Source of the DNA: Hyphococcus sp.
Lineage (GTDB): Bacteria > Pseudomonadota > Alphaproteobacteria > Caulobacterales > Parvularculaceae
Assembly: GCA_028281665.1 (NCBI GenBank)
Contig: JANQJK010000028.1
Span: 1 to 64,000 of the forward strand
Length of the DNA: 64,000 nucleotides
Direction: 5' to 3'
Shown here: positions 39,165 to 55,408 of the stretch, piece after piece
How positions within the stretch are numbered: position 1 is the first letter of the stretch
Layout of the letters: each line of letters begins with the position of its first letter
Position numbers and translations under genes: made by a program
The notes under the pieces: model-generated
Databases searched by the model: none
What the model saw: only the letters and a program-made list of their open reading frames with translations
What the model was told of the DNA's origin: nothing

Positions 39165-39230
39165 TAGAACTTCCATGGCGTGATGACAGCGCGTCCAATC
39201 TTCCCGGACCCGCTTTATCGGGAGTTTGCC

Positions 39231-40259: not shown

Positions 40260-41585
40260 ATGGAGGAAACCGTGCACAGCCGACAACTAGAGTTCATACC
40301 AGTTTCGAAAATAAAACCCCATCCGAATAACGCGAAGAAACACCCTAAGAAACAGATTCGAAAACTCAAAAAAAGCATCGACAATTACGGCTTTACTCGA
40401 CCGATTCTTGTCGACGAGAGAAACGTCATCATCGCGGGGCATGGAGCATTTGAGGCCGCAACGGCAGCGGACCTCAAGGAGGTTCCTTGTCTGCGCTTAG
40501 TTGGTTTCAGTGAAGCAAAAAAACGCGCTTACAGGCTCGCCGACAACAAGTTGGCCGAAGATTCTTCATGGGATGAGGAAATTCTTTCACAGGAACTTCA
40601 GACCTTACTCGAAGTTGATCTTGATTTTGACATAACTGCAACAGGCTTTGAGCCCGCTGAAATCGACCTCATCATTGGTGACGCAAACCCGAAAAAAGAA
40701 CACGACGCCTCCGAAGAAAATTTGGAGACGCTGGGTGGGCCGCTCGTTACATCCCCTGGCGATCTCTGGATTCTGGGCGATCACAAAATCTTCTGCGGCG
40801 ACGCCCTAGATTCTGTTTCTTATGACGCCCTTCTTCCTACAGAACGCGCCTGTGCAGTATTTGCTGACCCACCCTACAACCTTCAGGTTGAAGGCCTCGT
40901 ATCAGGCAAAGGCGCCGTCAAACACAAAGAATTCGCCATGGCTTCTGGCGAAATGACACCATCCGCATTTCGACACTTTCTAGAGCGTGCTTGCTCACGA
41001 CTCGTTTCGTACACTACTGACGGCTCGATCCATTTTATTTGTATGGATTGGCGCCATTGCGGCGATTTGCAACAAGCGGCGCAAACCGCCTACGCCGAAC
41101 TTAAAAACATCTGCATATGGAACAAAAACAATTCCGGAATGGGTTCTCTTTACCGTTCCAAACACGAGTTCATTTTTGTATTTAAGAATGGTACTGCTCC
41201 ACACATCAACAATATTGCCCTCGGAAAATACGGGCGCAATCGATCGAATATTTGGAATTACGCTGGAGCAAATAGCTTCGGCGCTGATCGCCTAAGTGAT
41301 CTCGCCGCACATCCGACCGTAAAACCTGTTGCCATGATCGCCGACGCACTCCTCGATGTCACTTGTCGGCGCGACGTCATCCTTGATCCGTTTTCAGGAT
41401 ATGGGTCGACCCTGATCGCCGCAGAGCGAACGAAGCGAAAAGCACGACTTATCGAAATCGAGCCTATCTACGTCGATCGCACGATCAGGCGGTGGCAAAG
41501 ATTCGCAAAAGATGACGCCATTCACGCCGTGACCGGTGAGTCTTTTGACACCAAGGCTTTGCGGTTGCAGTCGGAGCCGGAATGA
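40260..41585 (+). CDS. ParB-like nuclease domain / DNA methyltransferase
   Basis: Phage-type enzyme of about 441 residues. An N-terminal ParB-like domain (FIPVSKIKPHPNNAKKHPKK, FTRPILVDERNVIIAGHGAF) is joined to an N4/N6 DNA methylase domain with motif IV DPPYNLQ and the AdoMet-binding DPFSGYGSTLIAAERTKRKA near the C-terminus. Motif order (IV before I) is that of the beta group. The GTG at 40272 with GGAGG five bases upstream may be the true start instead of the ATG at 40260. A DUF5681 gene and terminase follow on the same strand. It may protect the element's DNA or influence packaging; that is inference. Confidence 0.93.
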   Translation: MEETVHSRQLEFIPVSKIKPHPNNAKKHPKKQIRKLKKSIDNYGFTRPILVDERNVIIAGHGAFEAATAADLKEVPCLRLVGFSEAKKRAYRLADNKLAEDSSWDEEILSQELQTLLEVDLDFDITATGFEPAEIDLIIGDANPKKEHDASEENLETLGGPLVTSPGDLWILGDHKIFCGDALDSVSYDALLPTERACAVFADPPYNLQVEGLVSGKGAVKHKEFAMASGEMTPSAFRHFLERACSRLVSYTTDGSIHFICMDWRHCGDLQQAAQTAYAELKNICIWNKNNSGMGSLYRSKHEFIFVFKNGTAPHINNIALGKYGRNRSNIWNYAGANSFGADRLSDLAAHPTVKPVAMIADALLDVTCRRDVILDPFSGYGSTLIAAERTKRKARLIEIEPIYVDRTIRRWQRFAKDDAIHAVTGESFDTKALRLQSEPE

Positions 41586-41658
41586 GTTGCGCCGGCGTCA
41601 GGCCGCGCACCATCCAAAATATCTTGTTCAATGTGCTCACACCAAAGGAGAGTGTACT

Positions 41659-42054
41659 GTGAGTAATAAAAACGATGATGGATACGAAGTCGGTTACGGG
41701 CGTCCGCCGAAACACACTCGGTTCGCAAAAGGTAGGTCTGGAAACCCCAAAGGTCGACCGCGCGGATCGAACAACTTTGAGACGGATGTCCGCAATACGC
41801 TGAATATGCCGGTGCCTGTAACCGAAAACGGCCGACGACGAAAAATCTCGACTCAAAAAGCTAACCTTCTGCTCTTTCGCGAAAAAGCGTTGAAGGGTGA
41901 CGCAAAGGCAATGGCCGAATTACTGAATCTAGCAAAAATGTTCAACAGCGAAGATCTGTTGGAAGATATCGGCGCACCGCTCTCAGTTGAAGATCAAGCA
42001 ATCCTGGACGCATTCCTCAAGAAGAACAAAGTTAAACTAGATCCTTCAAATTAA
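41659..42054 (+). CDS. DUF5681 domain protein
   Basis: A 131-residue protein whose start, VGYGRPPKHTRFAKGRSGNP followed by KGRPRGS, is the DUF5681 signature. The basic N-terminus suggests nucleic-acid binding, and the C-terminal half is helical. DUF5681 genes typically lie directly before large terminase genes in alphaproteobacterial prophages, so a small-terminase-like role is possible but unproven. GTG start with AAAGGAG eight bases upstream, and an 11-bp gap to the terminase gene. Confidence 0.88.
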   Translation: MSNKNDDGYEVGYGRPPKHTRFAKGRSGNPKGRPRGSNNFETDVRNTLNMPVPVTENGRRRKISTQKANLLLFREKALKGDAKAMAELLNLAKMFNSEDLLEDIGAPLSVEDQAILDAFLKKNKVKLDPSN

Positions 42055-42065
42055 GGCGCCCAATA

Positions 42066-43487
42066 ATGAACCAAACACGTATTCTGCAAGCAATTCTTCG
42101 CGACGAGTTGGTATTTTTTATCGAGAAGTGTTTCGGAACAATCTCTAAAGGCGACCGCTTCATCAGAAACTGGCATATTGACGCCATTGCCCATGAATTG
42201 AGTTCATGTCGTCACGGCACACAGAACCGATTGCTTGTCACGCAACCACCGCGTTCGTTGAAGTCGATTAGTACGTCTGTTGCCTACGTCGCATGGATGC
42301 TCGGGCACAATCCTGCGTTGCGATTTATCTGCGTTAGCTACAGCCAGGATTTGGCCCTAGAACTTTCACGCCAATTTCGCTTGGTTGTCGACGCAGGCTG
42401 GTACAAAGACCTGTTTCCCAACATGCGCCTGAAACGCGATTCAGGTAACGAGTGCATCACGGCTGCCGGCGGCGGACGCCTTGCGACGTCAATCGGCGGT
42501 ACTCTGACCGGACGTGGGGCAGATTGCATTATCGTTGATGACCCGATGAAGGCTGAAGAATCACTGTCAGAATCTGCGCGAAAGCGGGTTATTGATTGGT
42601 ATACTGGCACGCTCGCCACCAGGCTTAATGACAAGAAGAAGGGGGTTATCATTGTCGTCATGCAACGCCTGCATGAAGAAGACCTTGCAGGCTATGTTCT
42701 TGAACGAGGTGGGTGGAAGCACCTAAACTTGCCGGCAATTGCCGAGGAGGACGAGCGGATTGAGGTCGGATCTCAAATTTTTCACGTGCGGAAAAAAGGA
42801 GACGTGCTTCAACCCGTGCGAGAACCGATGGAAGTCCTGAAGCAACAACGTAGTTCGCTCGGTTCGTTGGCGTTTTCTGCTCAGTATCAACAACGCCCAG
42901 TCCCGCAGGAAGGCAATATTGTCAAACGCGAATGGCTGATGACGTATGCATCCATACCGGATGAAAAACGCATCCGTTTTGTTCAAAGCTGGGATATAGC
43001 AACGAGCACAAAGGCTACAGCCGACTATTCAGCATGTGTTACCGCTGCGATCTGGAAAAACCAATATTATGTGGTCGACGTCTGGCGCGGGCGGCTCGAC
43101 TATCCGAGTATTAAAAAGAAGATCATAAGCCACGCACAACGGTATAAAGCAAACAGCGTTTTGATTGAGCGAGCTGGACCGGGTCTTCAGCTGATCCAAG
43201 AGTTCCGGCGACGGCATTATCAAGGATTGCCAACGCCCATCTCGATACGACCGCATGCAGATAAGGCGGTTCGGCTAGAAGCGACGTCCGCGGTGATTGA
43301 AAGCGGATCCGTGTTCTTGCCGGAAGACGCTCCATGGATAGGTAGTTTCTTGAACGAACTGCTCGCATTTCCCAATGGCCGAAATGACGACCAGGTGGAT
43401 GCCTTCTCACAACTCATCAATTGGCGAGAAAAACGCTCGTCAACGCCAAGAGTTTCACCGCCAATAATTGTAAGACGGTATGGTTAA
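42066..43487 (+). CDS. Phage terminase large subunit
   Basis: DNA-packaging motor protein of 473 residues. The ATPase half has a Walker-A-like PPRSLKS (61-67) and Walker B CIIVDDP (about 154-160). The nuclease half has acidic residues in SWDIATST and NGRNDDQVDAFSQLI, characteristic of RNase-H-like terminase nucleases. All expected motifs are present and the length is normal. No portal or capsid gene follows on this module; the nearest capsid, protease and portal genes are about 6.6 kb to the right in the tRNA-Ser element. Confidence 0.93.
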   Translation: MNQTRILQAILRDELVFFIEKCFGTISKGDRFIRNWHIDAIAHELSSCRHGTQNRLLVTQPPRSLKSISTSVAYVAWMLGHNPALRFICVSYSQDLALELSRQFRLVVDAGWYKDLFPNMRLKRDSGNECITAAGGGRLATSIGGTLTGRGADCIIVDDPMKAEESLSESARKRVIDWYTGTLATRLNDKKKGVIIVVMQRLHEEDLAGYVLERGGWKHLNLPAIAEEDERIEVGSQIFHVRKKGDVLQPVREPMEVLKQQRSSLGSLAFSAQYQQRPVPQEGNIVKREWLMTYASIPDEKRIRFVQSWDIATSTKATADYSACVTAAIWKNQYYVVDVWRGRLDYPSIKKKIISHAQRYKANSVLIERAGPGLQLIQEFRRRHYQGLPTPISIRPHADKAVRLEATSAVIESGSVFLPEDAPWIGSFLNELLAFPNGRNDDQVDAFSQLINWREKRSSTPRVSPPIIVRRYG

Positions 43488-43656
43488 TGGGGATTATTTA
43501 AAGTCCGCCCATCTAAAACATCCGCTTAGAGACAATTTTTGACTGGATTTCCGTGCGCATTCGAGCGGTAGTGCGCATCACAAAATAGAGCCTCCCGCCC
43601 GACCGCCCTTGGCGCCGGGCTTGTCGCAGTGCAACGTCACGATGAGGAGGCATGTA

Positions 43657-43854
43657 GTGAAGAAACACATTTCCCAACCAATTGTGGCAATGCCGTTGGC
43701 CGACGCCGGCTCAATGGAACGTTGGCGCCGAGCGTTTGGTGAACCACCTCCGATAATCGCGGAACCGCGGCTCTTGGCGACGATCATTGATGAGTATGCG
43801 CCTCGACCAACCTATGGACGGAAAAACGAAGAACCACGCCATGGATCTCGCTGA
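43657..43854 (+). CDS. Small hypothetical protein upstream of DUF2924
   Basis: A 65-residue protein (KKHISQPIVAMPLADAGSME followed by RWRRAF) with no recognised domain. The GTG start has GAGGAGG six bases upstream, a strong ribosome site. The gene overlaps the start region of the DUF2924 gene in another frame, which fits a compact recombination cassette. Small proteins of this kind often precede DUF2924 and a serine recombinase in alphaproteobacteria; their role is unknown. Confidence 0.65.
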   Translation: MKKHISQPIVAMPLADAGSMERWRRAFGEPPPIIAEPRLLATIIDEYAPRPTYGRKNEEPRHGSR

Positions 43855-44275
43855 CGAAATCGAAGCGCTCAATGCGGCGCCCGTGAATGAGCTCAAAGCA
43901 CGATGGCGGCGACGGCATTGGCGGGAGCCGCCCGCAGGCCTGCCTCCGAAGCTCATGCGTGAGGCCTTCATTTACGCATTACAGAAAGACCGCTTCGGCG
44001 GCCTATCGGGGAAGGCCCGCCGACGCCTTGATGTGCTGGCGGCTAAGATTGACACCGATCCGAAGACGCCTGTGTGCGGCGACGGCGCGTTGCGTCCCGG
44101 CGCGCGGCTGGTTCGAGAATGGCGAGGGCAGCGGTTTGAAGTCGAAGTGCTTGAAAGCGGCTTCGGCATGAATGGCGAAACCTATTCAAGCCTTTCCGAA
44201 ATTGCACTTGTAATCACCGGGACCAAGTGGTCGGGGCCCCGATTCTTCGGCCTTAATAAGCGTTCAGCTAAATGA
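43790..44275 (+). CDS. DUF2924 family protein
   Basis: A protein of up to 161 residues. LADEIEALNAAPVNELKARW and the later LRPGARLVREWRGQRFEVEV are typical of DUF2924, whose members are nearly always paired with a large serine recombinase. The stop overlaps the recombinase ATG (ATGA), so the two are co-translated. Several ATGs (43790, 43796, 43814, 43841) could start it and none has a clear ribosome site. Probably an accessory or directionality factor for the recombinase; that role is inferred from linkage. Confidence 0.87.
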   Translation: MSMRLDQPMDGKTKNHAMDLADEIEALNAAPVNELKARWRRRHWREPPAGLPPKLMREAFIYALQKDRFGGLSGKARRRLDVLAAKIDTDPKTPVCGDGALRPGARLVREWRGQRFEVEVLESGFGMNGETYSSLSEIALVITGTKWSGPRFFGLNKRSAK

Positions 44276-45768
44276 CTAAAAAAACCATCCGATGCGCCAT
44301 CTACACGCGGAAGTCTGCGGAAGAGGGATTGGAACAAGAATATAACTCTCTTGACGCCTGCCGCTCCTACATTGAAAGCCAGAAAGCTGAAGGCTGGGTG
44401 GTGTATCCCGGCGCTTTCGATGATGGCGGCATATCTGGCGGGACCATGGAACGACCAGCACTTAAGAAACTGCTGGCGTTGATCGAGGCGGGTAAGGTCC
44501 AGGTCATTGTTGTTTACAAGATTGATCGACTGACGCGGTCCCTGCCCGATTTCGCTCGCATTGTCGAAATCCTCGACAAGCAGAATGCATCCTTTGTGTC
44601 GGTCACTCAGCAGTTCAACACGACGACATCCATGGGCCGTTTGACGCTGAATGTACTTTTGTCCTTCGCCCAGTTCGAGCGCGAAGTGACGTCGGAGCGC
44701 ATTCGCGACAAGATTGCTGCCTCCAAGAAAAAAGGCATTTGGATGGGCGGCTATCCGCCCCTAGGCTACGACATCAACAATCGTAGGCTCGTTCCGAACA
44801 GGTCTGAAGCCCGCACCGTCAATCGCATCTTTGAAATCGCTCTTGAAACGTCTTCCCTGACCGATCTCGAACGAAGACTGGCTAAAGAAGGTATTCGCGC
44901 AAAAGCCTGGCGCAGCCAGAACGGGCGAAAGTGTGGCGGAGGACCGCTCACCCGGAGCGCTTTGGGACGCATACTGCGCAATCCGGTTTACATCGGAAAG
45001 ATCCGTCACGGTGAGAAAGAATACGACGGCGAACAATCCGCAATTATCGATAATGAGCTTTGGACCGGCGTCCAATCAGCGCTCGATGGACGCGCTCATG
45101 AACGAGAGGCAAAGGTCAACACGACTTTTGAGGCGCCTCTTCGCAATCTCGTCTTCGATGATCGCGGCAATCGCATGGTCGCTACCTATGTCAAAAAGAA
45201 GAACCGCATCTCCTATCGCTACTACGCCAGCGCCCCAGCCATTCGTGGGCAAAAGGCAGGAACAATATCCCGCATCAACGCAGCCTGGCTTGAGAACAAG
45301 ATTGAGAAAACCATTGAAGAACCGGATGCGATCGATCGCATCCGGCGGATCGAGCTCCGCCCCCGCGAAATTATTGTCGAGACGCGCAAGCCCAGCGGCG
45401 AGAGAGACCAAATCCGCATTCCGGCCACGCTCGAGACACCAAAACAGTCAAGAAAAGTCTTCGCCTCTGGCGGGCGCCGTCATCACAACGAAGGGCTGAT
45501 CAAGGCAGCAGCGCAAGCCTATGGCTGGCGCAAGGCGCTCGAGGCCGGCGCTTATGCGACGGTCAAAGACCTCGCTAAAGAAAAGCAGCTCTCCGAACGC
45601 TATGTCTGGAAGATCCTACGGCTTGCATACCTATCGCCCGCCATTGTCGAAGCGATCCTCGATGGGCGGCAACCGCCCGCCCTCAGTCTCAGGCAAATCA
45701 ACGAGACCCAATTGTCTCCCGATTGGCGTTTGCAATCCCACGCGCTCGGGTTCGATGTTGCACTCTAA
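44272..45768 (+). CDS. Large serine recombinase
   Basis: A 498-residue site-specific recombinase. The resolvase catalytic domain starts RCAIYTRKSAEEG with nucleophile Ser15, and continues with KIDRLTRSLPDF and LLSFAQFEREVTSERIRDKI. A recombinase domain (MGGYPPLGYD) and a zinc-beta-ribbon-like region follow, though its Cys residues are largely missing. An extended C-terminal tail contains a helix-turn-helix-like LAKEKQLSERYVWKILRLAY. It is coupled to DUF2924. It could have integrated the phage-derived module to its left. Its attachment sites were not found. Confidence 0.93.
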   Translation: MTKKTIRCAIYTRKSAEEGLEQEYNSLDACRSYIESQKAEGWVVYPGAFDDGGISGGTMERPALKKLLALIEAGKVQVIVVYKIDRLTRSLPDFARIVEILDKQNASFVSVTQQFNTTTSMGRLTLNVLLSFAQFEREVTSERIRDKIAASKKKGIWMGGYPPLGYDINNRRLVPNRSEARTVNRIFEIALETSSLTDLERRLAKEGIRAKAWRSQNGRKCGGGPLTRSALGRILRNPVYIGKIRHGEKEYDGEQSAIIDNELWTGVQSALDGRAHEREAKVNTTFEAPLRNLVFDDRGNRMVATYVKKKNRISYRYYASAPAIRGQKAGTISRINAAWLENKIEKTIEEPDAIDRIRRIELRPREIIVETRKPSGERDQIRIPATLETPKQSRKVFASGGRRHHNEGLIKAAAQAYGWRKALEAGAYATVKDLAKEKQLSERYVWKILRLAYLSPAIVEAILDGRQPPALSLRQINETQLSPDWRLQSHALGFDVAL

Positions 45769-45942
45769 ACCGTCTCTCAGCGCCTAACTGAACCACTCAA
45801 ATACATGCAGAGACTCTCGGTCAGGGCGACCGTCTGGGCGACACGGAGAGACTCGTTCATCCGCATCTGCCACCCGTAACGCATTGAAATTACCCGGCAC
45901 CTATGATCGCGCTTTGGAACACGTATATTTGGTCAGAGCGGC

Positions 45943-45961
45943 TGGCGGACAGGGTGGGATT
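45943..45961. repeat. attL: distal 19-bp copy of the tRNA-Ser 3' end
   Basis: TGGCGGACAGGGTGGGATT is identical to 55319-55337, the 3' end of the tRNA-Ser gene including its CCA. Bases on both sides differ from the tRNA copy, so this marks the far boundary of the integrated element. Confidence 0.9.
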
Positions 45962-46102
45962 GGGAAAGTATAGTTAATTCAGTCATATATTGAGACTAAC
46001 TCTTGAAATTCTGTTCACTGATTTCCAATAGATATTTTGTAGATTGACTAACAATTGGCAAGCAAAGAGCGTCCAGAAATTGAATCGCTATGAGTATTTG
46101 AG

Positions 46103-46591
46103 ATGATCGAGGACAAGGAAATTGCCAACGAAATTCGACGGATTAGAAAATTTCATACTGCGTTGTGGGAGCGCGCAGAACAGTTAGGTATTGACCTAGG
46201 GGAACTTTTTGGAAGCCCGGCTACTTATGACGCGCCTAACGCTATTCAGGAACATGTTCGCGCATTAATTCCTGATGCAGAGTTAGGGCACAAAGTACGA
46301 TCTTCAGAAAATACGACAAACGAACAACGCCGTGCTAACGCAGAACACAGGCGACACTTGATCGTGTCCACAACCGACAAGATCCTCAAAGACTTAGAGG
46401 CGAAAGCGGAAGCCAAAGGGCGGACCAAACACGGGTTAAAAAGTTTGGCGTTTCGTTTGGCAAGCTCGGCAATAAACAGGCAGAAAAGTGCGATGGGTCG
46501 ACCCGCGCACGAACAGGAATCACCGGACTCAGTAAAGAAGATATATTATCGTTCAAAACGCAACCATCAAAAGGAAATCAACCAGGAGTAA
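46103..46591 (+). CDS. Hypothetical element protein
   Basis: A 162-residue charged, mostly helical protein of no recognised family. KILKDLEAKAEAKGRTKHGL suggests a coiled or DNA-associated helix and the C-terminus is strongly basic. It is the first gene inside the left attachment site and is followed six bases later by another unknown gene, so both are likely part of an early unit with the primase-like gene. No ribosome site is obvious before the ATG. Confidence 0.6.
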   Translation: MIEDKEIANEIRRIRKFHTALWERAEQLGIDLGELFGSPATYDAPNAIQEHVRALIPDAELGHKVRSSENTTNEQRRANAEHRRHLIVSTTDKILKDLEAKAEAKGRTKHGLKSLAFRLASSAINRQKSAMGRPAHEQESPDSVKKIYYRSKRNHQKEINQE

Positions 46592-46596
46592 CAATT

Positions 46597-46971
46597 ATGG
46601 AACTATCTGACTACGCAGAAATTTCAGACGGCGAGTTTCGTTATCATGTACGTGATGACGTAGACCCAGAAAAATTTGCTGACTGGATCCAACTCACCGC
46701 CCATCGAGAGGTTAGCCGGATTAGCCGACTTCGAGCGCTCGCAGTTGAACTCGCCAAGAAGTCAAAGGAAACAGCATTGCGCATTGCCCGACTACATGAC
46801 CACAAAGGCTTATTAACAGTAATTTGGGCCGAAGAGCCCAGAGGCGATGACACATGGGAAGTTGAAAAGCTGTGGTCTGAATTGGGTGAGACCCACGAGA
46901 ATGTCGGACATTATGTTCCCAAATTCAACAAAGGCGAAGATTTCGGCAGTTGGGACGTCACGGGCAAATAG
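46597..46971 (+). CDS. Hypothetical element protein
   Basis: A 124-residue soluble protein with no recognised domain. AVELAKKSKETALRIARLHD is a likely amphipathic helix and the C-terminal half is acidic. AGGAG lies upstream of the ATG. Its TAG stop is the first part of the 20-bp box at 46969, so the box overlaps the end of this gene. Position suggests a role in replication or regulation of the element. Confidence 0.6.
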   Translation: MELSDYAEISDGEFRYHVRDDVDPEKFADWIQLTAHREVSRISRLRALAVELAKKSKETALRIARLHDHKGLLTVIWAEEPRGDDTWEVEKLWSELGETHENVGHYVPKFNKGEDFGSWDVTGK

Positions 46972-46988
46972 GACCGTACCCCCACCAA
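46969..46988 (+). repeat. 20-bp box, copy 1
   Basis: TAGGACCGTACCCCCACCAA, identical to 49977-49996. It lies 15 bases upstream of the primase-like ATG. The other copy precedes the capsid gene, so a shared regulatory or recombination signal is likely. Confidence 0.75.
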
Positions 46989-47003
46989 GTTTTCCTTTAA
47001 GCC

Positions 47004-48893
47004 ATGCAAATTCGGGCTTGCTGTTTTTGGAGCGGCCCGTTGCGTTTCACATTTTTTCAATCACCACTCGACCGATCCGCATCAACCCATACCACAACGT
47101 GGCCGGACTTATGCGCTTGGATCGAGAAACCGCCAGAGTTTCGATCTAAACCGGAATGTCCGATGATCAAGCTGGGGGTGTTTGGCAACACGCCCAGCGA
47201 CAAAGGAATGATGCGCCATGATGCAAATTTAATCGCAATTACTGGCATCGAAGCTGATTACGACGGCGAGATCGTGTCTGTCGACGAAGCCGCTGAGAAA
47301 CTCCGCACCGCTGGCGTTCGTTGCCTGATCTACACTAGCGCCTCGCATCATCCAGATAAGCCGCGGTGGCGCGTTTTTATGCCCCTGACTGTCGAGTATC
47401 TGCCGCAGTATCGTAAGGGTTTTCTGGACTATCTGAACGCGACGCTGGGTGGTGTGATCGCGCGTGAATCGTGGGCACTCAGTCAAGCGTATTTCTGCGG
47501 CCGCGTGGCCGGTGTTCAGTATGAAACACGCGTTCTGGAAGGAAAGTGCATCGACGAACTCGCCGAGCCTGTCGCGTCTCCCATCGTACCCAAGGACGTT
47601 GATGAATTACCCGAATGGCGACACGTCGATATCAATAACCTTCCTATCTCTGATGACACAAAGTCACTTATTCGCGATGGAGCCGACAAGGGCGAACGGT
47701 CTGAAGCACTAATGACGGCAGCGAATGCCCTTGCAGCCGCCCGTGTTAAACGAGACGACATACTCTGTGTCCTGTCCGACCCGTCATACGCTATCAGCGC
47801 CAAAGCTTTGGAAGGGCGTCAACAGACCGCAGCGATGCGGTGGTTGGCAAGGCACACAGTTCGCAAAGCCCTGGAACGTCATCCACCGCCAGACGTATTT
47901 TTCGCCGAACCTATTGCTCCGGGAGTGGCACAAACGTCTCGAAAACTGTTGGCATCCGCTGGCGAACTGATCGCGCGAAATGAACCAATCGAGTATCAGA
48001 TTGATGGCGTCCTTGAACGCGGCGTTCTCGGTATGGTTTTTGGCGACCCAGGCGGCGGTAAAAGCTACGCAATGATCGACTGGGCCTGTTCGATCGCAAC
48101 AGGCACGCCTTGGACCGACCGATCTGTTTCGAATGGGGCGGTTGTCTACGTCGCCGGGGAGGGATTCGGAGGTTTGAATCGCCGCCTACGTGCATGGTCA
48201 CAGCACCGAAACGTATCTCTCAATGAAGCCCCGCTTCACGTCACCCAAAGAGCGGTAAATTTTGGCGATGCTCAAGCACTCGGCGAGCTAGTCGGCGAGA
48301 TAACCACCCTACCCGATAAACCCAGCCTCATCGTGGTTGATACGTTGGCGCGAGCAACGCCCGGAATGGATGAAAATTCGGCTAAGGAAGTCAGCGCATT
48401 CATCGCCGCCTGTGATCGATTGCGAGAACTGTTCGACTGCACCGTTTTGATCGTACATCACAGTGGCCACGGCGATAAAGCACGCGCGAAGGGCTCAATA
48501 GCCCTGAAAGGTGCGGTTGATTTCGAAGCACGAGTAGCAATCGGAAAACAGTCCGGAACACTCGTGATCGAATGCACAAAGATGAAGGACGGCGATCCGT
48601 TCGAACCAATCTATCTAAAATTCGAAACCGTAGCGCTTATTCCGGTAGGCGATTTCGCCGTGGAACGGTCATCGGTACTGGTCAAGACTGACAAGCCGGT
48701 TCAAACACAAGCAGTTTCGAAGGCAGACTTGTTGTTATCGAAGATCGTTGGCAGTGGGATCGAGAATAAGGATGAAGTCCACAGACAATTTCTTGCGGAA
48801 TATGAAGGATCGGACGAAGCGAAACGGTCGGCCTGGAGGCGAGCAAGTAACAAGGCAGGTCACTGGTCGGTCTCGGTCGACGACCGGTCATGA
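47004..48893 (+). CDS. Primase/RepA-like replicative ATPase
   Basis: A 629-residue protein with an N-terminal primase-like region (about 10-200, with CLIYTSASHHPDKPRWRVFM) and a RecA-fold ATPase of the RepA/AAA_25 type. Walker A is GDPGGGKSYAMIDWA, Walker B SLIVVDTLARATPG, and the following motif is VLIVHHSGHGDKARAKGSIA. It would unwind and prime the element's origin. The ATG at 47004 is chosen because the primase-like region starts close to it; a start at 47163 would truncate that region. No separate origin was located, though the 20-bp box lies just upstream. Confidence 0.87.
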   Translation: MQIRACCFWSGPLRFTFFQSPLDRSASTHTTTWPDLCAWIEKPPEFRSKPECPMIKLGVFGNTPSDKGMMRHDANLIAITGIEADYDGEIVSVDEAAEKLRTAGVRCLIYTSASHHPDKPRWRVFMPLTVEYLPQYRKGFLDYLNATLGGVIARESWALSQAYFCGRVAGVQYETRVLEGKCIDELAEPVASPIVPKDVDELPEWRHVDINNLPISDDTKSLIRDGADKGERSEALMTAANALAAARVKRDDILCVLSDPSYAISAKALEGRQQTAAMRWLARHTVRKALERHPPPDVFFAEPIAPGVAQTSRKLLASAGELIARNEPIEYQIDGVLERGVLGMVFGDPGGGKSYAMIDWACSIATGTPWTDRSVSNGAVVYVAGEGFGGLNRRLRAWSQHRNVSLNEAPLHVTQRAVNFGDAQALGELVGEITTLPDKPSLIVVDTLARATPGMDENSAKEVSAFIAACDRLRELFDCTVLIVHHSGHGDKARAKGSIALKGAVDFEARVAIGKQSGTLVIECTKMKDGDPFEPIYLKFETVALIPVGDFAVERSSVLVKTDKPVQTQAVSKADLLLSKIVGSGIENKDEVHRQFLAEYEGSDEAKRSAWRRASNKAGHWSVSVDDRS

Positions 48894-48983
48894 CCACGAG
48901 CCAGTCAAAACGGTTTCTGGTCGGTCGTGGTCCCCTGCCTATAAAAGGCAGGGACCGACCGCCAACCGATGACCCCGTTATTC

Positions 48984-49832
48984 TTATTCGCGTGGTTTTA
49001 TTCCGTCAAAAAGCGCATTCATTTCGCGTCTGGCTGCAATGAGCATCATATCGGCGTATCCCAAGCAGATCATGATGCCGTGTTCTTCACGGTGGTCGTG
49101 AAGGCCCCGGCCCGAAACGCTTTGTTCCATATTATAAAATGAATATGGCAGCGTGTGGACGTGGTTTGACAAGATAATATTCATTCTTCGCCAGATGTTT
49201 TTTTCCATTCCTGTATCTTCGGCAATTTCCTCCAAGCTTTTAAGGTATGCTTCGCGGCCTTTAAGTAGGGACTTTTGACGCTTGCCTTTCAGACCTGAAA
49301 AGAAAGCATTTTCCCGAAGCCTTTTGCGAAGCTTATCAGCTTGGTCGTCAAACGGCTTAAGAATTTCTTCTTCGGATGTACGTTCGGCCGCAATGCGACG
49401 CCTGGTAACGCAGTCATGCAAATTGAAGATGTTCCAACGACTTCTCCACTCGCTTTCCTCACATTGTTCGACACAAAGATAATGCAGCGCTAACCGAGTC
49501 TCGACCAACGAACGAACGAGGATTGCAATAGAGCGATAGTCCCAGTGGTCAATTAATTGATCTGACCAAATGCTTTTCGGAAGAAGCATCGCAATCGACA
49601 TGCCGCGGGTGCACATAGTCGTGAAGAGCGCCGACGAGTAAAAGTGTTGGGTCGTTGGGCTCGGAATTCCGCTTAGCTCTTTCGATAAAGATACGGAATC
49701 AAACAGTGACGAGCCGTAAGCAGTAATCGCTTCGTGATAAGCTTCACTCGGCTTTGATATTGGTAAGCCGATCTTATCCGACAGTGACTTGCGCGACCGC
49801 CTCTGCCGCAACTTCTTACTTACTTTACTCAT
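48984..49832 (-). CDS. Reverse-oriented hypothetical cargo protein
   Basis: A 282-residue helical protein transcribed against all other genes of the element. The region HWDYRSIAILVRSLVETRLA followed by LHYLCVE resembles DUF5677-type proteins, but the assignment is weak. The N-terminus is very basic (SKKLRQRRSRKSLSDK). It sits between the replication and capsid modules, inside the interval bounded by the two 20-bp boxes. A separately transcribed gene at such a place in phage satellites often encodes an accessory or anti-phage function. No function is shown here. Confidence 0.65.
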   Translation of the reverse strand: MSKVSKKLRQRRSRKSLSDKIGLPISKPSEAYHEAITAYGSSLFDSVSLSKELSGIPSPTTQHFYSSALFTTMCTRGMSIAMLLPKSIWSDQLIDHWDYRSIAILVRSLVETRLALHYLCVEQCEESEWRSRWNIFNLHDCVTRRRIAAERTSEEEILKPFDDQADKLRKRLRENAFFSGLKGKRQKSLLKGREAYLKSLEEIAEDTGMEKNIWRRMNIILSNHVHTLPYSFYNMEQSVSGRGLHDHREEHGIMICLGYADMMLIAARREMNALFDGIKPRE

Positions 49833-49976
49833 CAACTTTTGCCGATCATGAATGCGGGGTTTTTTGCTAACCTGAGTCGGCGAAACCGGCTGCCAAGCAA
49901 AATTTTTTCGCGCGCAGGTTGTAAGAACAAAAATAGAACATTATTTGTTTTCAATAGCTTAGATATTACCTGAAAC

Positions 49977-49996
49977 TAGGACCGTACCCCCACCAA
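49977..49996 (+). repeat. 20-bp box, copy 2
   Basis: Perfect second copy of TAGGACCGTACCCCCACCAA, ending 71 bases before the capsid ATG, in a region with no coding overlap. Confidence 0.75.
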
Positions 49997-50067
49997 ATCA
50001 ATCTCATTCTGACGTTTCCTTGGCCGCGACAGCCGCAATCCCGCGGCAAACACCAAGGAATACAACG

Positions 50068-51333
50068 ATGAAGATTCACGACTTACAGGAGCGGCGGACA
50101 AAGCTTGTCGCGGAATGCCGTTCACTTATCTCCGCCTCTCATGACGCGGGCAAGATCGATCTGGACGACGAAGCCCGCAAAAAATTCGACGCCAACGAAG
50201 CGGAAATTCGAAAACTGGACGAACAAATCGCCCGCGAATCCCGCCTCGCTGAAATGGAACGACAATCCGAAGCAGCCGAAACTCTGAACGGTGGGACGCC
50301 TGACTTCGATCGCGAATGTCGTGCCCCCGGATTGTTCCTGGACGCTATCGCCGCATCCGCCGGCATTGCCGGCCGTGACACAGGCCGCGTTCTGGAAGTC
50401 TCCGCAGAACTACAGAAACGGACAGGACGAACCGCTCAAGGCGTGATGATCCCTGAATCGATTTTCCGTCAGCAGGAACAACGTGTCGTGCTTTCGTCGA
50501 CTACCGGTGCCGGCGCAATCGGAACAGAACACAAGGCGGATCAATTGATCGATCCGCTTCGGGCCGCTTCCGTCGTCAACGCTCTTGGCGCAACCACCCT
50601 GTCCGGTCTTGTTGGCAATTGTTCAATCCCCGCGATCGACACGGGCTTCACCGCGGCGTGGATCGCGGAAAACGGGGCATTGTCCGCTGACGACTGGGAC
50701 ATTAACGCACGAACCCTTAGCTCGAAGCATGTCGGTGCATTGACCGAGTTCAGCCGGAACATGGTCCTACAATCTGACCCGTCTGTGGATGCCATGGCGA
50801 CCCGTGACGGCGCTCGCGCCCTTGCTTCGGCTCTGGACGCCGCGGCGCTTGTCGGTGGCGGCTCGAACGAACCGTCCGGTATCTTGGACACCATCACGCC
50901 CGGAACGTTCGCGACGCCGACTTGGTCGGAAGGTCTCGAACTGATTTCATCCATCGCAACCGCGAACGCCCTGACTGGACGTCTCGGCTGGGCCGGCCAT
51001 CCGCAGGTGACAAAGAAACTTCGTTCAACCGTCCGCGTTGGTTCGACGGACTCGCGTTTCATCATGGAAGATCCGAACTCGCTTTATGGTTTTCCTTATT
51101 TCGACACAACGGCTCTCGTCGGCGGCGGTTCACCCGCGGACCGTGCGATCGTCTTCGGCGACTTTTCATCGCTCGTGATTGGAACTTGGTCCGGCGTCGA
51201 TATCCTCGCCAACCCTTACGAAAGCACCGCGTATTCCAAAGGGAATATTCAGGTCCGTGCACTGATGAGCGCCGACATTGTCATCCGCCACAACGAATCC
51301 TTCGCCGGCGCAAACGACATGAACACCGCCTGA
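50068..51333 (+). CDS. HK97-type major capsid protein
   Basis: A 421-residue capsid subunit. Residues 1-75 form a charged coiled-coil delta/scaffold region (LQERRTKLVAECRSLI, KLDEQIARESRLAEMERQ) normally removed by the prohead protease. The HK97 fold follows: AELQKRTGRTAQGVMIPESI, STTGAGAIGTEHKADQLIDP, GWAGHPQVTKKLRSTV and the C-terminal IVIRHNESFAG. AAGGA lies eight bases before the ATG; the frame extends upstream to a TTG at 50020, which is unlikely. Order capsid-protease-portal is the reverse of the common portal-protease-capsid order. Confidence 0.92.
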   Translation: MKIHDLQERRTKLVAECRSLISASHDAGKIDLDDEARKKFDANEAEIRKLDEQIARESRLAEMERQSEAAETLNGGTPDFDRECRAPGLFLDAIAASAGIAGRDTGRVLEVSAELQKRTGRTAQGVMIPESIFRQQEQRVVLSSTTGAGAIGTEHKADQLIDPLRAASVVNALGATTLSGLVGNCSIPAIDTGFTAAWIAENGALSADDWDINARTLSSKHVGALTEFSRNMVLQSDPSVDAMATRDGARALASALDAAALVGGGSNEPSGILDTITPGTFATPTWSEGLELISSIATANALTGRLGWAGHPQVTKKLRSTVRVGSTDSRFIMEDPNSLYGFPYFDTTALVGGGSPADRAIVFGDFSSLVIGTWSGVDILANPYESTAYSKGNIQVRALMSADIVIRHNESFAGANDMNTA

Positions 51334-51341
51334 TAATCAAT

Positions 51342-51365
51342 CGCCGGGGTTTTTCCTACCCGGCG
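51342..51365 (+). terminator. Hairpin after the capsid gene
   Basis: CGCCGGG (51342-51348) pairs with CCCGGCG (51359-51365) across a T-rich loop, starting 8 bases after the capsid stop. It lacks a following T tract, so it may be an attenuator or RNA-stability hairpin rather than a full terminator. Confidence 0.45.
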
Positions 51366-51391
51366 TAGCGCGCGCCCCTTGGTCGCGAGCC

Positions 51392-51457
51392 GGGCGGCGA
51401 TGTTGTGGGTGTTTTCGCTTTCTCCACCTGCGTTACGGACGTCGCCGCCCGCTTTTT
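51392..51457 (+). terminator. Possible rho-independent terminator/attenuator
   Basis: GGGCGGCGA (51392-51400) pairs with TCGCCGCCC (51442-51450), and seven T residues follow. The loop of 41 nt is long. It would lower protease and portal expression relative to capsid. Confidence 0.4.
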
Positions 51458-51471
51458 TTGAGGATGATTAA

Positions 51472-51999
51472 ATGAGAGACATAGAACGACGTTCAGCGGA
51501 ATTAGAAATCCGCGCCAGCGGGAGACGGCTGGAAGGTTATGCAGCAATTTTTGGCGTTCGCGCAAAGATCGCTGATTTTGAAGAAGAGATACGAAGCGGC
51601 GCATTCGCCGCGTCATTGGCGGACGGTGACAAGCTTGCCCTTGTAGATCACGACCCGACAAAAGTTCTGGGTCGAACCCGAAACAGTTCGCTTCGGCTTT
51701 CGGAAGACAGTCGCGGCTTACACTTCGCCGTCGATCTCCCAAAGACTTCCCTTGCGAATGACATCCTGGCCCTTGCCGAATCTGACAGTCTTGGCGGCGC
51801 ATCGTTCGGATTTATCGCAAAACGCGACACCTGGACGGGTACGCTGCGGACGCTTCATGAAATTGATCTGCGTGAAGTCAGCATCGTATCCGCATGGCCC
51901 GCATACCCGGAAACGACGGTCAGCGCCCGATCGCTGCAAGCGGTCGATCGATCGATTTATCAACGACGCCTGTCACTTATTGAATTGGGGGCGCTGTGA
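51472..51999 (+). CDS. HK97 family prohead protease
   Basis: A 175-residue maturation protease. GRRLEGYAAIFGVRAKI opens the fold. The probable catalytic His lies in ALVDHDPTKVLGRT and the Ser in SLGGASFGFIAKRD, and the chain closes with REVSIVSAWPAYPET. It would cleave the capsid N-terminal region during shell maturation. GAGG lies upstream of the ATG. Its stop overlaps the portal start as TGATG. Confidence 0.92.
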   Translation: MRDIERRSAELEIRASGRRLEGYAAIFGVRAKIADFEEEIRSGAFAASLADGDKLALVDHDPTKVLGRTRNSSLRLSEDSRGLHFAVDLPKTSLANDILALAESDSLGGASFGFIAKRDTWTGTLRTLHEIDLREVSIVSAWPAYPETTVSARSLQAVDRSIYQRRLSLIELGAL

Positions 52000-53210
52000 T
52001 GTTCGATCGTATTCTGTCAGCACTCGGCTACGAAAAGCGGGTCACCGACTACAGCCCGTTTTCGCCAGACGTTTGGGGACGCGCATTCCATCCTGGTATC
52101 GGTCACGTCAGCTCTACGAAGGTACTTAGCAACCTCGCGGTTGCGGTTCGCTGCGTATCGCTGCGGTCCGAATTGCTGTCTTCTGTCCCGCTAAAGGTTT
52201 TCCGACGTCTTGAAAATGGCGATCGCGAACGCGTCGACGGAACGCCTCTGACGGACGTCCTTAGCGATCTCGCCAATCCGCTGATGACGTCGTTCGAGCT
52301 TCGGGAATTTCTGATCCGTTCGCTTGATACGGCCGGGAACGCCTATGCCCGGATCGATCGAAACGGGCGCGGACAAGTCACAGCCCTGTGGCCACTGACG
52401 CCTGGGTCCGTCGCTGTGGAGCGGATGGAAAGCGGACGGCTTCGCTACCGAGTAACGCTTCCAGGTCAATCGCCGACCCGATTGCTTCAGGAAGAAGTCC
52501 TGCACATTCGCGCGTCGACGGAAGACGGACTGATCGGCCGTTCGCCCATCACCATCGCCCGCGGTTCTCTGGGTATGGCAATCGCTCAGAATGAAACGGC
52601 GGAAAACCTCGCGGCGAATGGACTACGACCGGCTGCGGCCTTCACACATCCCGGCAAACTAAGCTCGGAAGCAATCGAGAACATCCGCAGTGCATACATC
52701 GAAACGAACGGCGGTCCTCACAATGCGGGCAAACCCATAGTTCTTCAGGAAGGTATGACGCTGTCACATGCGTCGTTCAGCGCCGAAGACGCGGAGTTAT
52801 TGGAATCCCGCAAACTGTCCAACGAAGACGTCGCGCGGATCTTCGGCGTCCCACCTGCGTCCGTCGGTATCTCCACCAGCGTCAGTTACGGATCGGCTCA
52901 GCAGGCCGCCCAGGACCTTGTAAGCAACGCCCTCTCGCCCCTCGCCGCCCGTGTGGAGCAAGCCATGCAGCGTTGTCTCTTATCCACTGAAGGGCGTCGC
53001 ACGATGTTTATTGAACATGACCTATCGGGGCTTCTCCGCGGCGATGCGTCCACACGGTGGGCGACCTACCGGACAGGCCGTCAAATTGGCGCGCTGTCGA
53101 ACAACGAAATCCGGCGATTTGAAAACATGCCGGCATACGAAGGCGGCGATGACCGTACGCCGTTGTCCAATCAAACCCAATCAAACGATCCTGTAGCGTC
53201 AGAAAGGTAA
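51999..53210 (+). CDS. Phage portal protein (HK97 family)
   Basis: A 403-residue portal subunit forming the DNA entry vertex. It has the conserved start VRCVSLRSELLSSVPLKVF and FLIRSLDTAGNAYARIDRNG, then LHIRASTEDGLIGRSPITIA, DAELLESRKLSNEDVARIFG and VPPASVGIS typical of the family. The start overlaps the protease stop, with a GGGGG element upstream; a GTG one codon earlier is possible. Intact length suggests it is functional. The terminase that would dock on it is not in this element. Confidence 0.93.
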   Translation: MFDRILSALGYEKRVTDYSPFSPDVWGRAFHPGIGHVSSTKVLSNLAVAVRCVSLRSELLSSVPLKVFRRLENGDRERVDGTPLTDVLSDLANPLMTSFELREFLIRSLDTAGNAYARIDRNGRGQVTALWPLTPGSVAVERMESGRLRYRVTLPGQSPTRLLQEEVLHIRASTEDGLIGRSPITIARGSLGMAIAQNETAENLAANGLRPAAAFTHPGKLSSEAIENIRSAYIETNGGPHNAGKPIVLQEGMTLSHASFSAEDAELLESRKLSNEDVARIFGVPPASVGISTSVSYGSAQQAAQDLVSNALSPLAARVEQAMQRCLLSTEGRRTMFIEHDLSGLLRGDASTRWATYRTGRQIGALSNNEIRRFENMPAYEGGDDRTPLSNQTQSNDPVASER

Positions 53211-53214
53211 CACC

Positions 53215-53586
53215 ATGCATAGAGATTTCGGTGAGGACACCGCCATCAAAATCATGAATACGAAGCTCCAAGGCAAACCCCGCGACGCTGTGTACAAACT
53301 CACAGATGCGGAATTAGCGATCCTCAAAAACACATTCACGGCCTGGACCGTTTGTCTATCGCAGATCCTGGCGAACCGTATCGGCGCGGACCAAACGAAA
53401 CGGATGATCCAGCAAGTTGTGGTACTTCCGGAAAACCAACGCGTTGCGATGGCGCAATCGGCAGGTAAGGCGCTCGACAACGAAGAAGTTCCAGACGAAG
53501 CGGACTTTGCTGCGTACATCCTCTGCAATCACACCGACCAATTATTGATCGAATCGGAAATCCAGCGACGGGAGACTCTCAATTGA
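53215..53586 (+). CDS. Hypothetical element protein
   Basis: A 123-residue mostly helical, acidic protein of unknown family (KLTDAELAILKNTFTAWTVC, IQQVVVLPENQRVAMAQSAG). It begins 5 bases after the portal stop and ends at the next small coding region, so it belongs to the morphogenetic unit. A head-completion or size-determining role would fit its place but is not supported by a motif. Confidence 0.65.
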   Translation: MHRDFGEDTAIKIMNTKLQGKPRDAVYKLTDAELAILKNTFTAWTVCLSQILANRIGADQTKRMIQQVVVLPENQRVAMAQSAGKALDNEEVPDEADFAAYILCNHTDQLLIESEIQRRETLN

Positions 53587-53652
53587 ACGCCGAGTTTCGC
53601 AAAGCATACCGAACCGCCTGTCGTAATTTAAAGCAAGCAATTGAACGAGACG

Positions 53653-53988
53653 ATGATTGTCCTGGAGAAACCGAGATACGAAACGAGCGGCCAGACGGCA
53701 AACAGATTGGCGGTGACGATCCAACGTTTTTGGAAAGATCTCGGTCACAACGTGGACGTCAGAGTTAGGGAAACGACGGTGAATGGTAGGCCGGTGCATG
53801 TACTTGAATCAGATTTAGTGAATGGCTTGCCGCCTGGTTACGCTGGTTCGCTTCGTCATCTTCCGGTTATCCGCGAACGACCTGTACCACCCGACACGTC
53901 CGCCGTTCGTGATTGCATGACCTGCGGCAAGTCGTTCAAATCGGAGGGTATCGATAACCGGATGTGTGATTACTGTCGGTCCAAATGA
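53653..53988 (+). CDS. Small zinc-ribbon protein
   Basis: About 111 residues. The C-terminal end DCMTCGKSFKSEGIDNRMCD followed by YCRSK has two CxxC pairs and should bind zinc. The first half has no recognised motif. The start is uncertain: ATG at 53653 or TTG at 53641. The stop overlaps the AlpA-like start (ATGA). The zinc ribbon suggests DNA binding or control of late genes, as with small phage activators; that is inference. Confidence 0.7.
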   Translation: MIVLEKPRYETSGQTANRLAVTIQRFWKDLGHNVDVRVRETTVNGRPVHVLESDLVNGLPPGYAGSLRHLPVIRERPVPPDTSAVRDCMTCGKSFKSEGIDNRMCDYCRSK

Positions 53989-54218
53989 CTCGGTCATATC
54001 CGTTCGATTGCCCCCGCGGGATGAACCGTGTGGAAGCGGCGCGTTACATCGGCGTGTCGCCCTCAAAGTTCGACGAATTGGTGAAATCGGGTTCGATGCC
54101 TCAACCTAAACGGGTAGGCAAACGAAAGATATATGACCGGGCCGCCTTGGATACTGCTTTCGACTTGCTTGCTGGAGTCGACGATGGTGATGATGAAGGG
54201 AACGATTGGGATGCTTAA
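53985..54218 (+). CDS. AlpA-like / MerR-type small DNA-binding protein
   Basis: A 77-residue winged-helix protein. MNRVEAARYIGVSPSKFDEL and MPQPKRVGKRKIYDRAAL are typical of AlpA/excisionase proteins, which in phage islands act as excisionase or as activator of integrase and replication genes. It ends two bases before the integrase ATG and has an acidic tail (DDGDDEGNDWD). Together with integrase it likely forms the excision control unit. Confidence 0.87.
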   Translation: MTRSYPFDCPRGMNRVEAARYIGVSPSKFDELVKSGSMPQPKRVGKRKIYDRAALDTAFDLLAGVDDGDDEGNDWDA

Positions 54219-54220
54219 CC

Positions 54221-55276
54221 ATGGCCACGATCAAACTTCCTTACGTCCACACATACACAGACGTTCGCGGTAAGAGGCGGTGTTATTATCGTCGTAAGGG
54301 GCGTCGTTACCCCCTGCCCGGCTCGCCTGGAAGCACCGAATTTATGACGGCCTATGTGGACGCAGAGGCATGTTTCGGTGAGGGACCGATTGTCGAACGC
54401 AAACCCAGAGCCGGTACACTCGAAGCAGTAATTCAAAGCTATTACGCTTCGTCTGGTTATCTGTCGCTGCGTCCGGCGACGAAAAACACATATCGCGGAA
54501 TCATTGAACGAGTTCGCGCCGAGCATGGATCAAAACGCGTCGCCCACCTGGAACGCAGACATGTGGCCGATATTGTAGCGGCAAAGTTCAAAGATGGCGG
54601 ACCAAGTGCCGCAAACAACTTTCTCCGCGTCCTTCGGATGCTCTGTAATCATGCCATCGAAGTCGGCGAACTTGATCACAACCCGACATTTAACGTTCGA
54701 AAAATTCGGTCCGGCTCCGAAGGCTTCGTAACGTGGGATGAGGATGCAATCGCACGGTATGAAAAGCGTTGGCCGATCGGCACCCGTGAGCGTCTAGCAT
54801 TCGCATTATTGCTTTACACCGGGCAGCGCCGCGGCGACGTTGTCACGATGGGTCGGCAGCATGTAGCCGATGGCGTGCTTACGATTTCCCAAAGCAAGAC
54901 GGGCGCAACTGTCAGCATTCCATTGCACTCGGAATTGAAGAAAGCCATCGACCAGACGCCGAATGAACAACTCACGTTCATTGTAACGAAGCATGGAGCA
55001 CCGTACACGCCAAGCGGGTTCGGCAACGCGTTTAGGGATTGGTGTAATCAAGCTGGCATTACGAAGTTGACCGCTCACGGGTTACGAAAAGCGGCTGCAA
55101 GACGTCTCGCCGAAGCGGGCTGTTCAGTTCACCAGATCGCGGCGATTACCGGCCACCGCACCCTGAAAGAAGTTGAAAGGTACGCCGCGAAAGCCGATCA
55201 GATTCGGCTCGCCCGCGACGCCATGAAAACATTGAGCGAACGCGAAGTGGCTAACATGCCAAAAAAGAGTGGCTAA
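54221..55276 (+). CDS. Tyrosine recombinase/integrase
   Basis: A 351-residue phage-type integrase. An N-terminal AP2-like DNA-binding part (about 10-55, with RCYYRRKGRRYPLPG) is followed by a SAM-like core-binding domain (65-150) and the catalytic domain. Arg203/204 lies in TGQRRGD, His286 and Arg289 in TAHGLRK, His312 in TGHRTL, and nucleophile Tyr321 in VERYAAK. All catalytic residues are present. It ends 42 bp from the tRNA-Ser gene, whose 3' end it presumably uses as attachment site. Confidence 0.94.
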   Translation: MATIKLPYVHTYTDVRGKRRCYYRRKGRRYPLPGSPGSTEFMTAYVDAEACFGEGPIVERKPRAGTLEAVIQSYYASSGYLSLRPATKNTYRGIIERVRAEHGSKRVAHLERRHVADIVAAKFKDGGPSAANNFLRVLRMLCNHAIEVGELDHNPTFNVRKIRSGSEGFVTWDEDAIARYEKRWPIGTRERLAFALLLYTGQRRGDVVTMGRQHVADGVLTISQSKTGATVSIPLHSELKKAIDQTPNEQLTFIVTKHGAPYTPSGFGNAFRDWCNQAGITKLTAHGLRKAAARRLAEAGCSVHQIAAITGHRTLKEVERYAAKADQIRLARDAMKTLSEREVANMPKKSG

Positions 55277-55318
55277 CATCGTCGTATCGTATTGAAACAG
55301 AGGGCGTTTATTTTGGAG

Positions 55319-55337
55319 TGGCGGACAGGGTGGGATT
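55319..55337. repeat. attR: 19-bp repeat within the tRNA-Ser 3' end
   Basis: TGGCGGACAGGGTGGGATT, identical to 45943-45961. It begins at the encoded CCA end and reaches into the T arm, so integration restores the tRNA sequence. Confidence 0.9.
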
Positions 55338-55408
55338 CGAACCCACGAGACGGTTGCCCGCCTACACGCGTTCCAGGCGTGCGCCTTCGACCACTCGGCC
55401 ACCTGTCC
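55319..55408 (-). tRNA. tRNA-Ser (GGA)
   Basis: A 90-nt class II tRNA on the minus strand with encoded CCA. The acceptor stem GGACAGG pairs with CCTGTCC, the anticodon loop reads CTGGAAC (anticodon GGA at 55372-55374), there is a long variable arm, and the T loop is GTTCGAATC. It is the integration target of the element to its left. Confidence 0.96.

Follow-up and report, generated by a model that had tools for sequence, protein, structure and literature searches.

A Putative Terminase-less Satellite with Its Own Head Genes and a Candidate cos-like Site at a tRNA-Ser Gene of Hyphococcus sp.

With reference to the literature, capsid-forming phage-inducible chromosomal islands (cfPICIs) are described in the accessible text of PMC10690885 as also encoding connectors, a large terminase subunit (TerL), a small terminase subunit (TerS) and an HNH protein. 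In cos-type phage-inducible chromosomal islands (PICIs) and Staphylococcus aureus pathogenicity islands (SaPIs), such as EcCICFT073 and SaPIbov5, and in P4, the helper terminase acts on the satellite cos and helper capsids are used or resized, according to the accessible portions of PMC6739421, PMC6092414, PMC5052747 and PMC10690885. In this study, we analysed a stretch of 64,000 nucleotides (the window) from Hyphococcus sp., which belongs to a 106-kb contig (JANQJK010000028.1) of a 3.35 Mb genome, and examined an element of about 9.4 kb at 45943-55337. It can be observed that this element resembles cfPICIs as a small integrative element with an integrase, an AlpA, a replication gene, its own capsid, protease and portal and no tail genes, presumably needing helper tails, but the packaging genes that cfPICIs carry by description were not found in it, and a cos-like block is present instead. 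Like the cos-type PICIs, SaPIs and P4, it would be packaged by a helper terminase at a satellite cos, whereas those systems, as far as the accessible portions describe them, have no head of their own. We infer that in its shell the element works like a cfPICI and in its packaging like a cos-PICI or P4, lacking the own-terminase feature of the former. Each half has precedent, namely capsid-making satellites with a terminase and cos satellites without a complete own head; a satellite with its own capsid, protease and portal and without a terminase was not encountered in the literature searched, which did not cover the primary cfPICI paper and is no proof of absence. With a probability of roughly 0.6, we consider the element to be an integrative, terminase-less, head-encoding satellite that is loaded through the cos-like block by the HNH, TerS and TerL of a helper into its own procapsid.

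The element and its integration site

The element lies between perfect direct repeats whose starts are 9,376 bp apart, and its genes run from the left repeat as orf1, orf2, replication ATPase, DUF5677 gene (opposite strand), capsid, protease, portal, orf123, orf115, AlpA and integrase to the tRNA-Ser. The features are as follows (L and G handles denote loci or contigs and genomes, respectively).

45943..45961, no strand: left attachment repeat (attL copy), 19 bp, identical to 55319-55337; the alignment with the empty-site relative L112 stops exactly at 45961
46103..46591, plus: orf1, 162 aa, no family; 28% identical to the 135-aa protein encoded at the corresponding position of L057; AF2 model of low confidence (pLDDT 65.7)
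46597..46971, plus: orf2, 124 aa, no family; an open reading frame (ORF) without Pfam or PHROGs assignment
46969..46988, plus: 20-nt exact repeat TAGGACCGTACCCCCACCAA, copy upstream of the replication gene
47040..48893, plus: replication protein, AAA_25 ATPase (7e-41) with primase/helicase-like PHROG matches; TTG start inferred from L057
48984..49835, minus: cargo gene, DUF5677 protein; slot content differs among relatives
49885..49920, plus: putative cos-like block ACCGGCTGCC-N8-TTTTTT-CGCGCGCAGGTT, conserved and noncoding, between cargo and capsid, 183 bp before the capsid ATG
49977..49996, plus: 20-nt exact repeat TAGGACCGTACCCCCACCAA, copy upstream of the head genes
50068..51333, plus: HK97-fold major capsid protein (PF05065 2e-27, phrog_617; longest ORF from TTG 50020)
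51472..51999, plus: prohead protease (PF04586 5e-36, phrog_80)
51996..53210, plus: portal protein (PF04860 3e-93, phrog_12)
53215..53586, plus: orf123, all-helical, directly 3' of the portal; conserved in L057 and L058; AF2 pLDDT 89.5
53641..53988, plus: orf115, small, with a C-terminal zinc-ribbon-like CxxC...CxxC (motif by eye); phrog_13335; conserved in L057 and L058
53985..54218, plus: AlpA-like excisionase/regulator (phrog_25900, phrog_66)
54206..55276, plus: tyrosine integrase (PF00589 1e-23)
55319..55337, no strand: right attachment repeat, the 3'-terminal 19 nt of tRNA-Ser, 19/19 identical to the left copy
55319..55408, minus: intact tRNA-Ser (GGA), the integration target (ARAGORN)

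These assignments bear out the preliminary description, which had named perfect 19-bp repeats at both ends, integrase and AlpA-like genes beside the intact tRNA, a primase/RepA-like ATPase and a complete HK97 head trio; only the start of the ATPase gene, whose longest ORF begins at 47004, is probably to be moved to the TTG at 47040, by comparison with L057. The tRNA-Ser(GGA) is the sole tRNA gene of the window according to ARAGORN, and one given 19-mer would recur by chance on the same strand within 10 kb with a probability of about 4e-8 by our arithmetic. Judged by its repeats, the element is integrated at the 3' end of tRNA-Ser. The features that the accessible text of PMC6092414 lists for PICIs in the wide sense (specific attachment site, integrase, AlpA- or MerR-type regulator, replication gene and small size) are all present, and there is no full phage gene set. 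The nearest named relative of the element is held by a Marinicaulis metagenome-assembled genome.

In the same-genus genome G036, the left flank of the window (43920-45961) aligns in one piece at 74% into an intact tRNA-Ser, and the right flank resumes past the tRNA-Ser the lengths differing by about 170 bp and the junction falling on the 19-bp core; an empty site, which had been proposed as something to seek in relatives, is thus present in one that shares the left flank. In the window as in L057 and L058, the replication, capsid, protease, portal, orf123 and orf115 genes are open, and in the window so is the integrase gene; none of the disabling mutations considered beforehand appeared. Against L057, dN/dS was 0.078 for the replication gene, 0.075 for the capsid, 0.029 for the protease, 0.069 for the portal, 0.11 for orf123 and 0.28 for orf115, with no internal stops, the ratios being rough as dS (1.1-1.7) is near saturation. 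By these ratios, purifying selection on the head and replication genes is strong.

Neither Pfam nor PHROGs returned a large terminase or an HNH match for any of the 11 element proteins tested, and a TerL profile search of the element also found none, so the claim that no terminase lies between the attachment sites stood. No tail genes were recognised among the element proteins by Pfam or PHROGs, and no Rpp-like protein was recognised in the element. Compared with the cfPICI description, the own capsid, protease and portal are present, whereas no own TerL or HNH was recognised and the only hint of a TerS is that the AlpA-like protein weakly matches phrog_57. As for connectors, orf123 follows the portal without a family or fold match: the proposed fold search for an adaptor or small terminase yielded nothing in PDB or BFVD at E<=0.001, no Pfam or PHROG family was assigned, and orf123 was dropped as a connector or TerS candidate. 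The orf1 product was also tried as a TerS, and its AF2 model was too poor to judge.

Terminase and cargo among related satellites

Portal searches covered 62 family genomes, 385 class genomes and 398 order genomes, and the matching loci were then read; in the order search, 26 of the 40 portal matches at E<=1e-40 were read as loci. The TerL profile was built from L060 and L061, which themselves carry TerL by Pfam. At E<=1 this profile found no TerL in the window element, L057, L058, L059, L134, L135, L136, L151, L152 or L004; the L135 and L004 contigs end just upstream of the capsid, where a terminase cannot be excluded, and L152 showed no terminase in 19.1 kb, its element ends not being found. 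Seven of these terminase-less elements are bounded by repeats at a tRNA gene, with the following distances between repeat starts.

Window: tRNA-Ser, 9,376 bp
L057: tRNA-Gly, 9,746 bp
L058: tRNA-Met, 9,574 bp
L059: tRNA-Arg, 8,843 bp
L134: tRNA-Gly, 9,276 bp
L136: tRNA-Pro, 10,555 bp
L151: tRNA-Val, 9,362 bp

The core order is unchanged in near relatives that occupy other tRNA genes and have different integrases. The profile was positive in L084, L085, L137, L138, L139, L141, L142 and L150, which together with L060 and L061 form a set of ten terminase-bearing satellites. Like the window element, these have an integrase and identically ordered capsid, protease and portal genes of the same families; in seven of the ten, att-type repeats 8.9-11.0 kb apart occur at a tRNA gene. 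They differ in carrying TerL upstream of the capsid (10/10) and a recognised HNH (9/10, the exception being L138), where the window has its cargo gene. Their genes run (HNH-)TerL-(x)-capsid-(x)-protease-portal; most have the integrase after the portal, and L084 has it at the opposite end. The order capsid-protease-portal was therefore described correctly beforehand, but it is not unusual, being the rule in related satellites including those with TerL. Nine further loci (L140, L143-L149 and L153), taken as ordinary prophages from gene maps alone, all carry TerL, and the portal follows TerL in the eight that were mapped, the TerL of L148 being found by the profile.

In a portal tree of 29 rows, the window and seven other terminase-less rows form one clade with support of 98/96, which lies beside satellites that have TerL before the same capsid-protease-portal block. 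L151 and L152 fall in another portal clade, and on the well-supported branches the terminase label must change at least twice; therefore, terminase loss has probably occurred more than once.

The slot between the replication gene and the capsid holds the DUF5677 gene in the window, an unrelated 295-aa protein in L057 and three genes, one weakly GNAT-like, in L058. The cargo genes are antiparallel to the head operon in the window, L057, L058, L134 and L151, and their position is that of HNH-TerL in the terminase-bearing relatives. The DUF5677 protein, at 283 aa, is the largest ORF of the element without a phage role, and PADLOC gave no match for it. At 4674-6664 of L151, which is terminase-less and of the other clade, the slot contains a NotI-like restriction enzyme and a C5 methylase. 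The clade ancestor may have lost its terminase genes, after which cargo came to occupy their place; the packaging site would have been retained or acquired. We lean slightly towards the view that this satellite lineage has split the head from the motor, retaining its own procapsid and portal and a phage-type DNA address and losing HNH and terminase, with the vacated locus used for cargo.

The cos-like block and its candidate helper

Roughly 180-235 bp ahead of the capsid ATG, the terminase-less elements share a block in which ACCGGC[TG]GCC is followed by 7-8 spacer positions, a run of T and GCGC; it is present in the window, L057, L058, L004 and L134. A regular expression based on it matched exactly in the window, L057 and L058, with one mismatch in L134 and in none of the ten terminase-bearing elements; L135 cannot be tested for it. 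The strict pattern, which the L134 spacing escapes, occurred in four of the 398 order genomes (three satellites and one match inside an ORF) against three matches of a reversed control pattern, and a looser pattern occurred in one of the 385 class genomes, the window's own, against two control matches. We infer that the block is a cos-like site. The preliminary description had pictured an extreme case in which even the terminase is missing; that no terminase genes were found agrees with this, but the element appears to carry a cos-like site and so is not without any packaging function. A scan with GAAACCGGCTGCCAAGC returned eight contigs, near chance by our estimate. In five of the ten terminase-bearing satellites (L060, L137, L139, L141 and L142) an ACCG...TTAGTT arrangement was noticed at the HNH-TerL junction; with shuffled means of 0.23-0.63 matches per whole element and matches elsewhere in L060, L084 and L057, it is only suggestive of an own cos in those satellites.

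In IMG/VR, four related block patterns drew out 15 contigs besides the satellite contig L004; since these contigs were chosen by pattern, the independent evidence is the position of the block next to TerS. In five of the 15, a small-terminase gene follows the block on the same strand at a distance of 59-111 bp: in L165, L166, L172 and L176 a Terminase_4 TerS accompanied by TerL, and in L174 a DUF1441-like gene (below the Pfam cut-off), a candidate TerS, accompanied by a GpA-type TerL. In seven others, comprising five distinct sequences (L162 = L164, L173 = L179, L175, L178 and L180), the block falls inside protease, head-tail adaptor, baseplate, tail-fibre and protease genes, respectively; in L182 it stands just before an endolysin-like gene, and in L177 and L181 in ORFs without identification. 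Naming the genes at these matches makes the contrast with the five TerS-side matches firmer. ORF cover was dropped as a sign of chance matches, as four of the five TerS-side matches also lie under some ORF of at least 100 aa. With an nhmmer profile made from five satellite blocks alone, the top match was the TerS-side site in all five contigs. In L165, L166 and L176 the block sits between co-directional HNH and TerS genes, and the physical genome ends of HK97 and D3 likewise lie between HNH and TerS; for HK97 it is established, according to the accessible text of PMC11331095, that cos is cleaved with TerS binding immediately downstream. The L172 contig starts 21 nt upstream of the block (1-60), as might be expected if virion DNA ends nearby; at this distance an HNH gene on the left would lie outside the contig.

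HK97-like phages with HNH and P27-type TerS have head proteins homologous to those of the element and a cos-like block before TerS, but their order is TerL-portal-protease(-capsid) and they have tail genes where read. P27-type TerS was found in three of the 62 family genomes (G019, G031 and G058). A prophage of G019, a genome of the same genus, has the order HNH - GATTTTTTTTGCGCGCAAGTTTT - TerS - TerL - portal - protease - capsid - tail genes. With a profile combining satellite and phage blocks, its HNH-TerS site, T8-GCGCGCAAGTTTT, scored 16.8 bits, and nothing in 362,836 bases of other DNA (host, satellite and prophage) scored above 8.6. No comparable score was obtained from G031 or G058. The G019-type prophage is a candidate that names the helper type and not a proven partner, and the most plausible helper type is an HK97-like siphophage with HNH, P27-type (Terminase_4) TerS and a matching site.

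Under the proposed mechanism, helper entry or induction would lead to satellite excision, concatemer replication and expression of the head operon. The helper HNH, TerS and TerL would recognise the cos-like block and cut the satellite DNA, the helper terminase would dock on the satellite's own portal and fill a small satellite procapsid with about 9.4 kb, and the helper would provide connector and tail. Several observations weigh against this. The block was not found in L059, L151 or L152, and L136 has no more than a weak variant of it; Pfam and PHROGs recognised no connector or adaptor among the element proteins; and the match of the AlpA-like protein to small-terminase phrog_57 (E 0.0012, not its best match) leaves a satellite-made TerS-like factor possible. 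P27-type TerS was absent from the window's own genome in the family search. The G019 site matches the right half of the block only and, with the satellite-only profile, reached 10.7 bits against 9.3 for the best elsewhere, a thin margin which makes the helper case weaker; in L176, the site was not the top match of an ungapped matrix. The satellite block profile did not pick the junctions of HK97, HK022 or D3, and in a gapped comparison with the HK97 junction windows scoring as high made up 22% for the window, 40% for L057 and 69% for L134, which is not significant, with 1.5% for L058, at most suggestive. Letter similarity of the block to the HK97, HK022 and D3 junctions was thus not established, and they were set aside as homologous cos sites.

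The exact repeat TAGGACCGTACCCCCACCAA was also considered as a packaging or helper signal and rejected, its 15-mer matching 15 IMG/VR stretches, at or below chance by a rough estimate; a 13-mer of it occurs among the 62 family genomes only in the satellites of G000 (the window's own genome) and G029. The pre-capsid stretch holds an exact repeat of 16-20 nt in four of 14 elements (window, L057, L134 and L084); of 94-109 other stretches, just 2-3 equal or beat it, and these presumably contain the partner copy. The L058 repeat is 13 nt (6/97), and the other nine elements show nothing unusual. In L134 (12610 and 15287) and L084 (3034 and 7371), element-specific exact repeats stand before the head operon and an early gene, one of them nearly palindromic. 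These repeats differ in sequence between satellites and are probably operators of a satellite regulator.

Alternative explanations and meaning

The block could instead be a late promoter or activator site common to helper phages, which times the head genes while packaging uses another signal. Its place 183-234 bp ahead of the capsid ATG in satellites, and before the small-terminase gene, the first of the packaging and head block, in phages would suit this, as would the second, element-specific repeat in the same intergenic region of the window. However, in L165, L166, L176 and G019 the block lies between HNH and TerS, the location of the HK97 and D3 physical ends, and it recurs ahead of the GpA-type terminase of L174, so we regard a promoter role as rather unlikely. 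It is improbable that the head genes act on helper capsids, by poisoning or resizing them, with satellite DNA travelling in mixed or helper shells: the accessible portion of PMC5052747 does describe for SaPIbov5 a capsid homologue (Ccm), cos packaging and resized helper heads, but a matching protease and portal under strong purifying selection would be needless for a size-modifier.

A resident terminase might also serve the element. To the left of attL, at 39180-45768, lie a ParB/N6-MTase gene, an intact-looking TerL, a DUF2924 gene and a serine recombinase, which form a separate remnant. The TerL gene (42066-43487, just outside attL) is open and matches phrog_38 at 2e-109, and on contig 3 of the same genome (L114, 7950-19901) there is a cluster, with a TerL of its own, that looks like a gene transfer agent on visual inspection of gene sizes, gene order and protein sequences. 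A gene transfer agent is a fixed chromosomal cluster with terminase and tail and no integrase, whereas the element has an integrase and att repeats and lacks a terminase. The DUF2924 and recombinase genes already adjoin the satellite-free tRNA-Ser in G036 and G042, and G042 retains only a fragment of TerL. The adjacent TerL was accordingly rejected as part of the element, and by this comparison the genes left of attL belong to an older neighbouring element. Neither resident TerL was matched in the loci of 27 relatives, and a resident source seems very improbable. The least credible alternative is a decayed prophage or domesticated, immobile head genes; the terminase, connector and tail genes not recognised by Pfam, PHROGs or the TerL profile would fit decay, but the ORFs are intact, dN/dS is 0.03-0.08, the empty site is exact and the core is conserved across different tRNA genes with different integrases. 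Broken genes, relaxed selection and a longer syntenic prophage, of which the element would be a remnant, were not found, close relatives keeping the terminase-less core in other tRNA genes. As these comparisons indicate, the element is inserted and maintained and not a decayed prophage, and the earlier proposal of a compact satellite making its own head without a terminase is supported by the open genes, purifying selection, terminase-less relatives and the empty site.

Portal and terminase normally work as one motor. If the proposed helper-loaded satellite is real, a clade that has retained its portal but dispensed with the terminase would amount to a natural experiment on the cross-compatibility of motors and portals, and it would stand as an intermediate between whole-shell thieves (P4, SaPI) and tail-only thieves (cfPICI). 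The cos-like block would then provide a sequence handle for finding helpers, which is usually hard, as well as a small, testable packaging signal.

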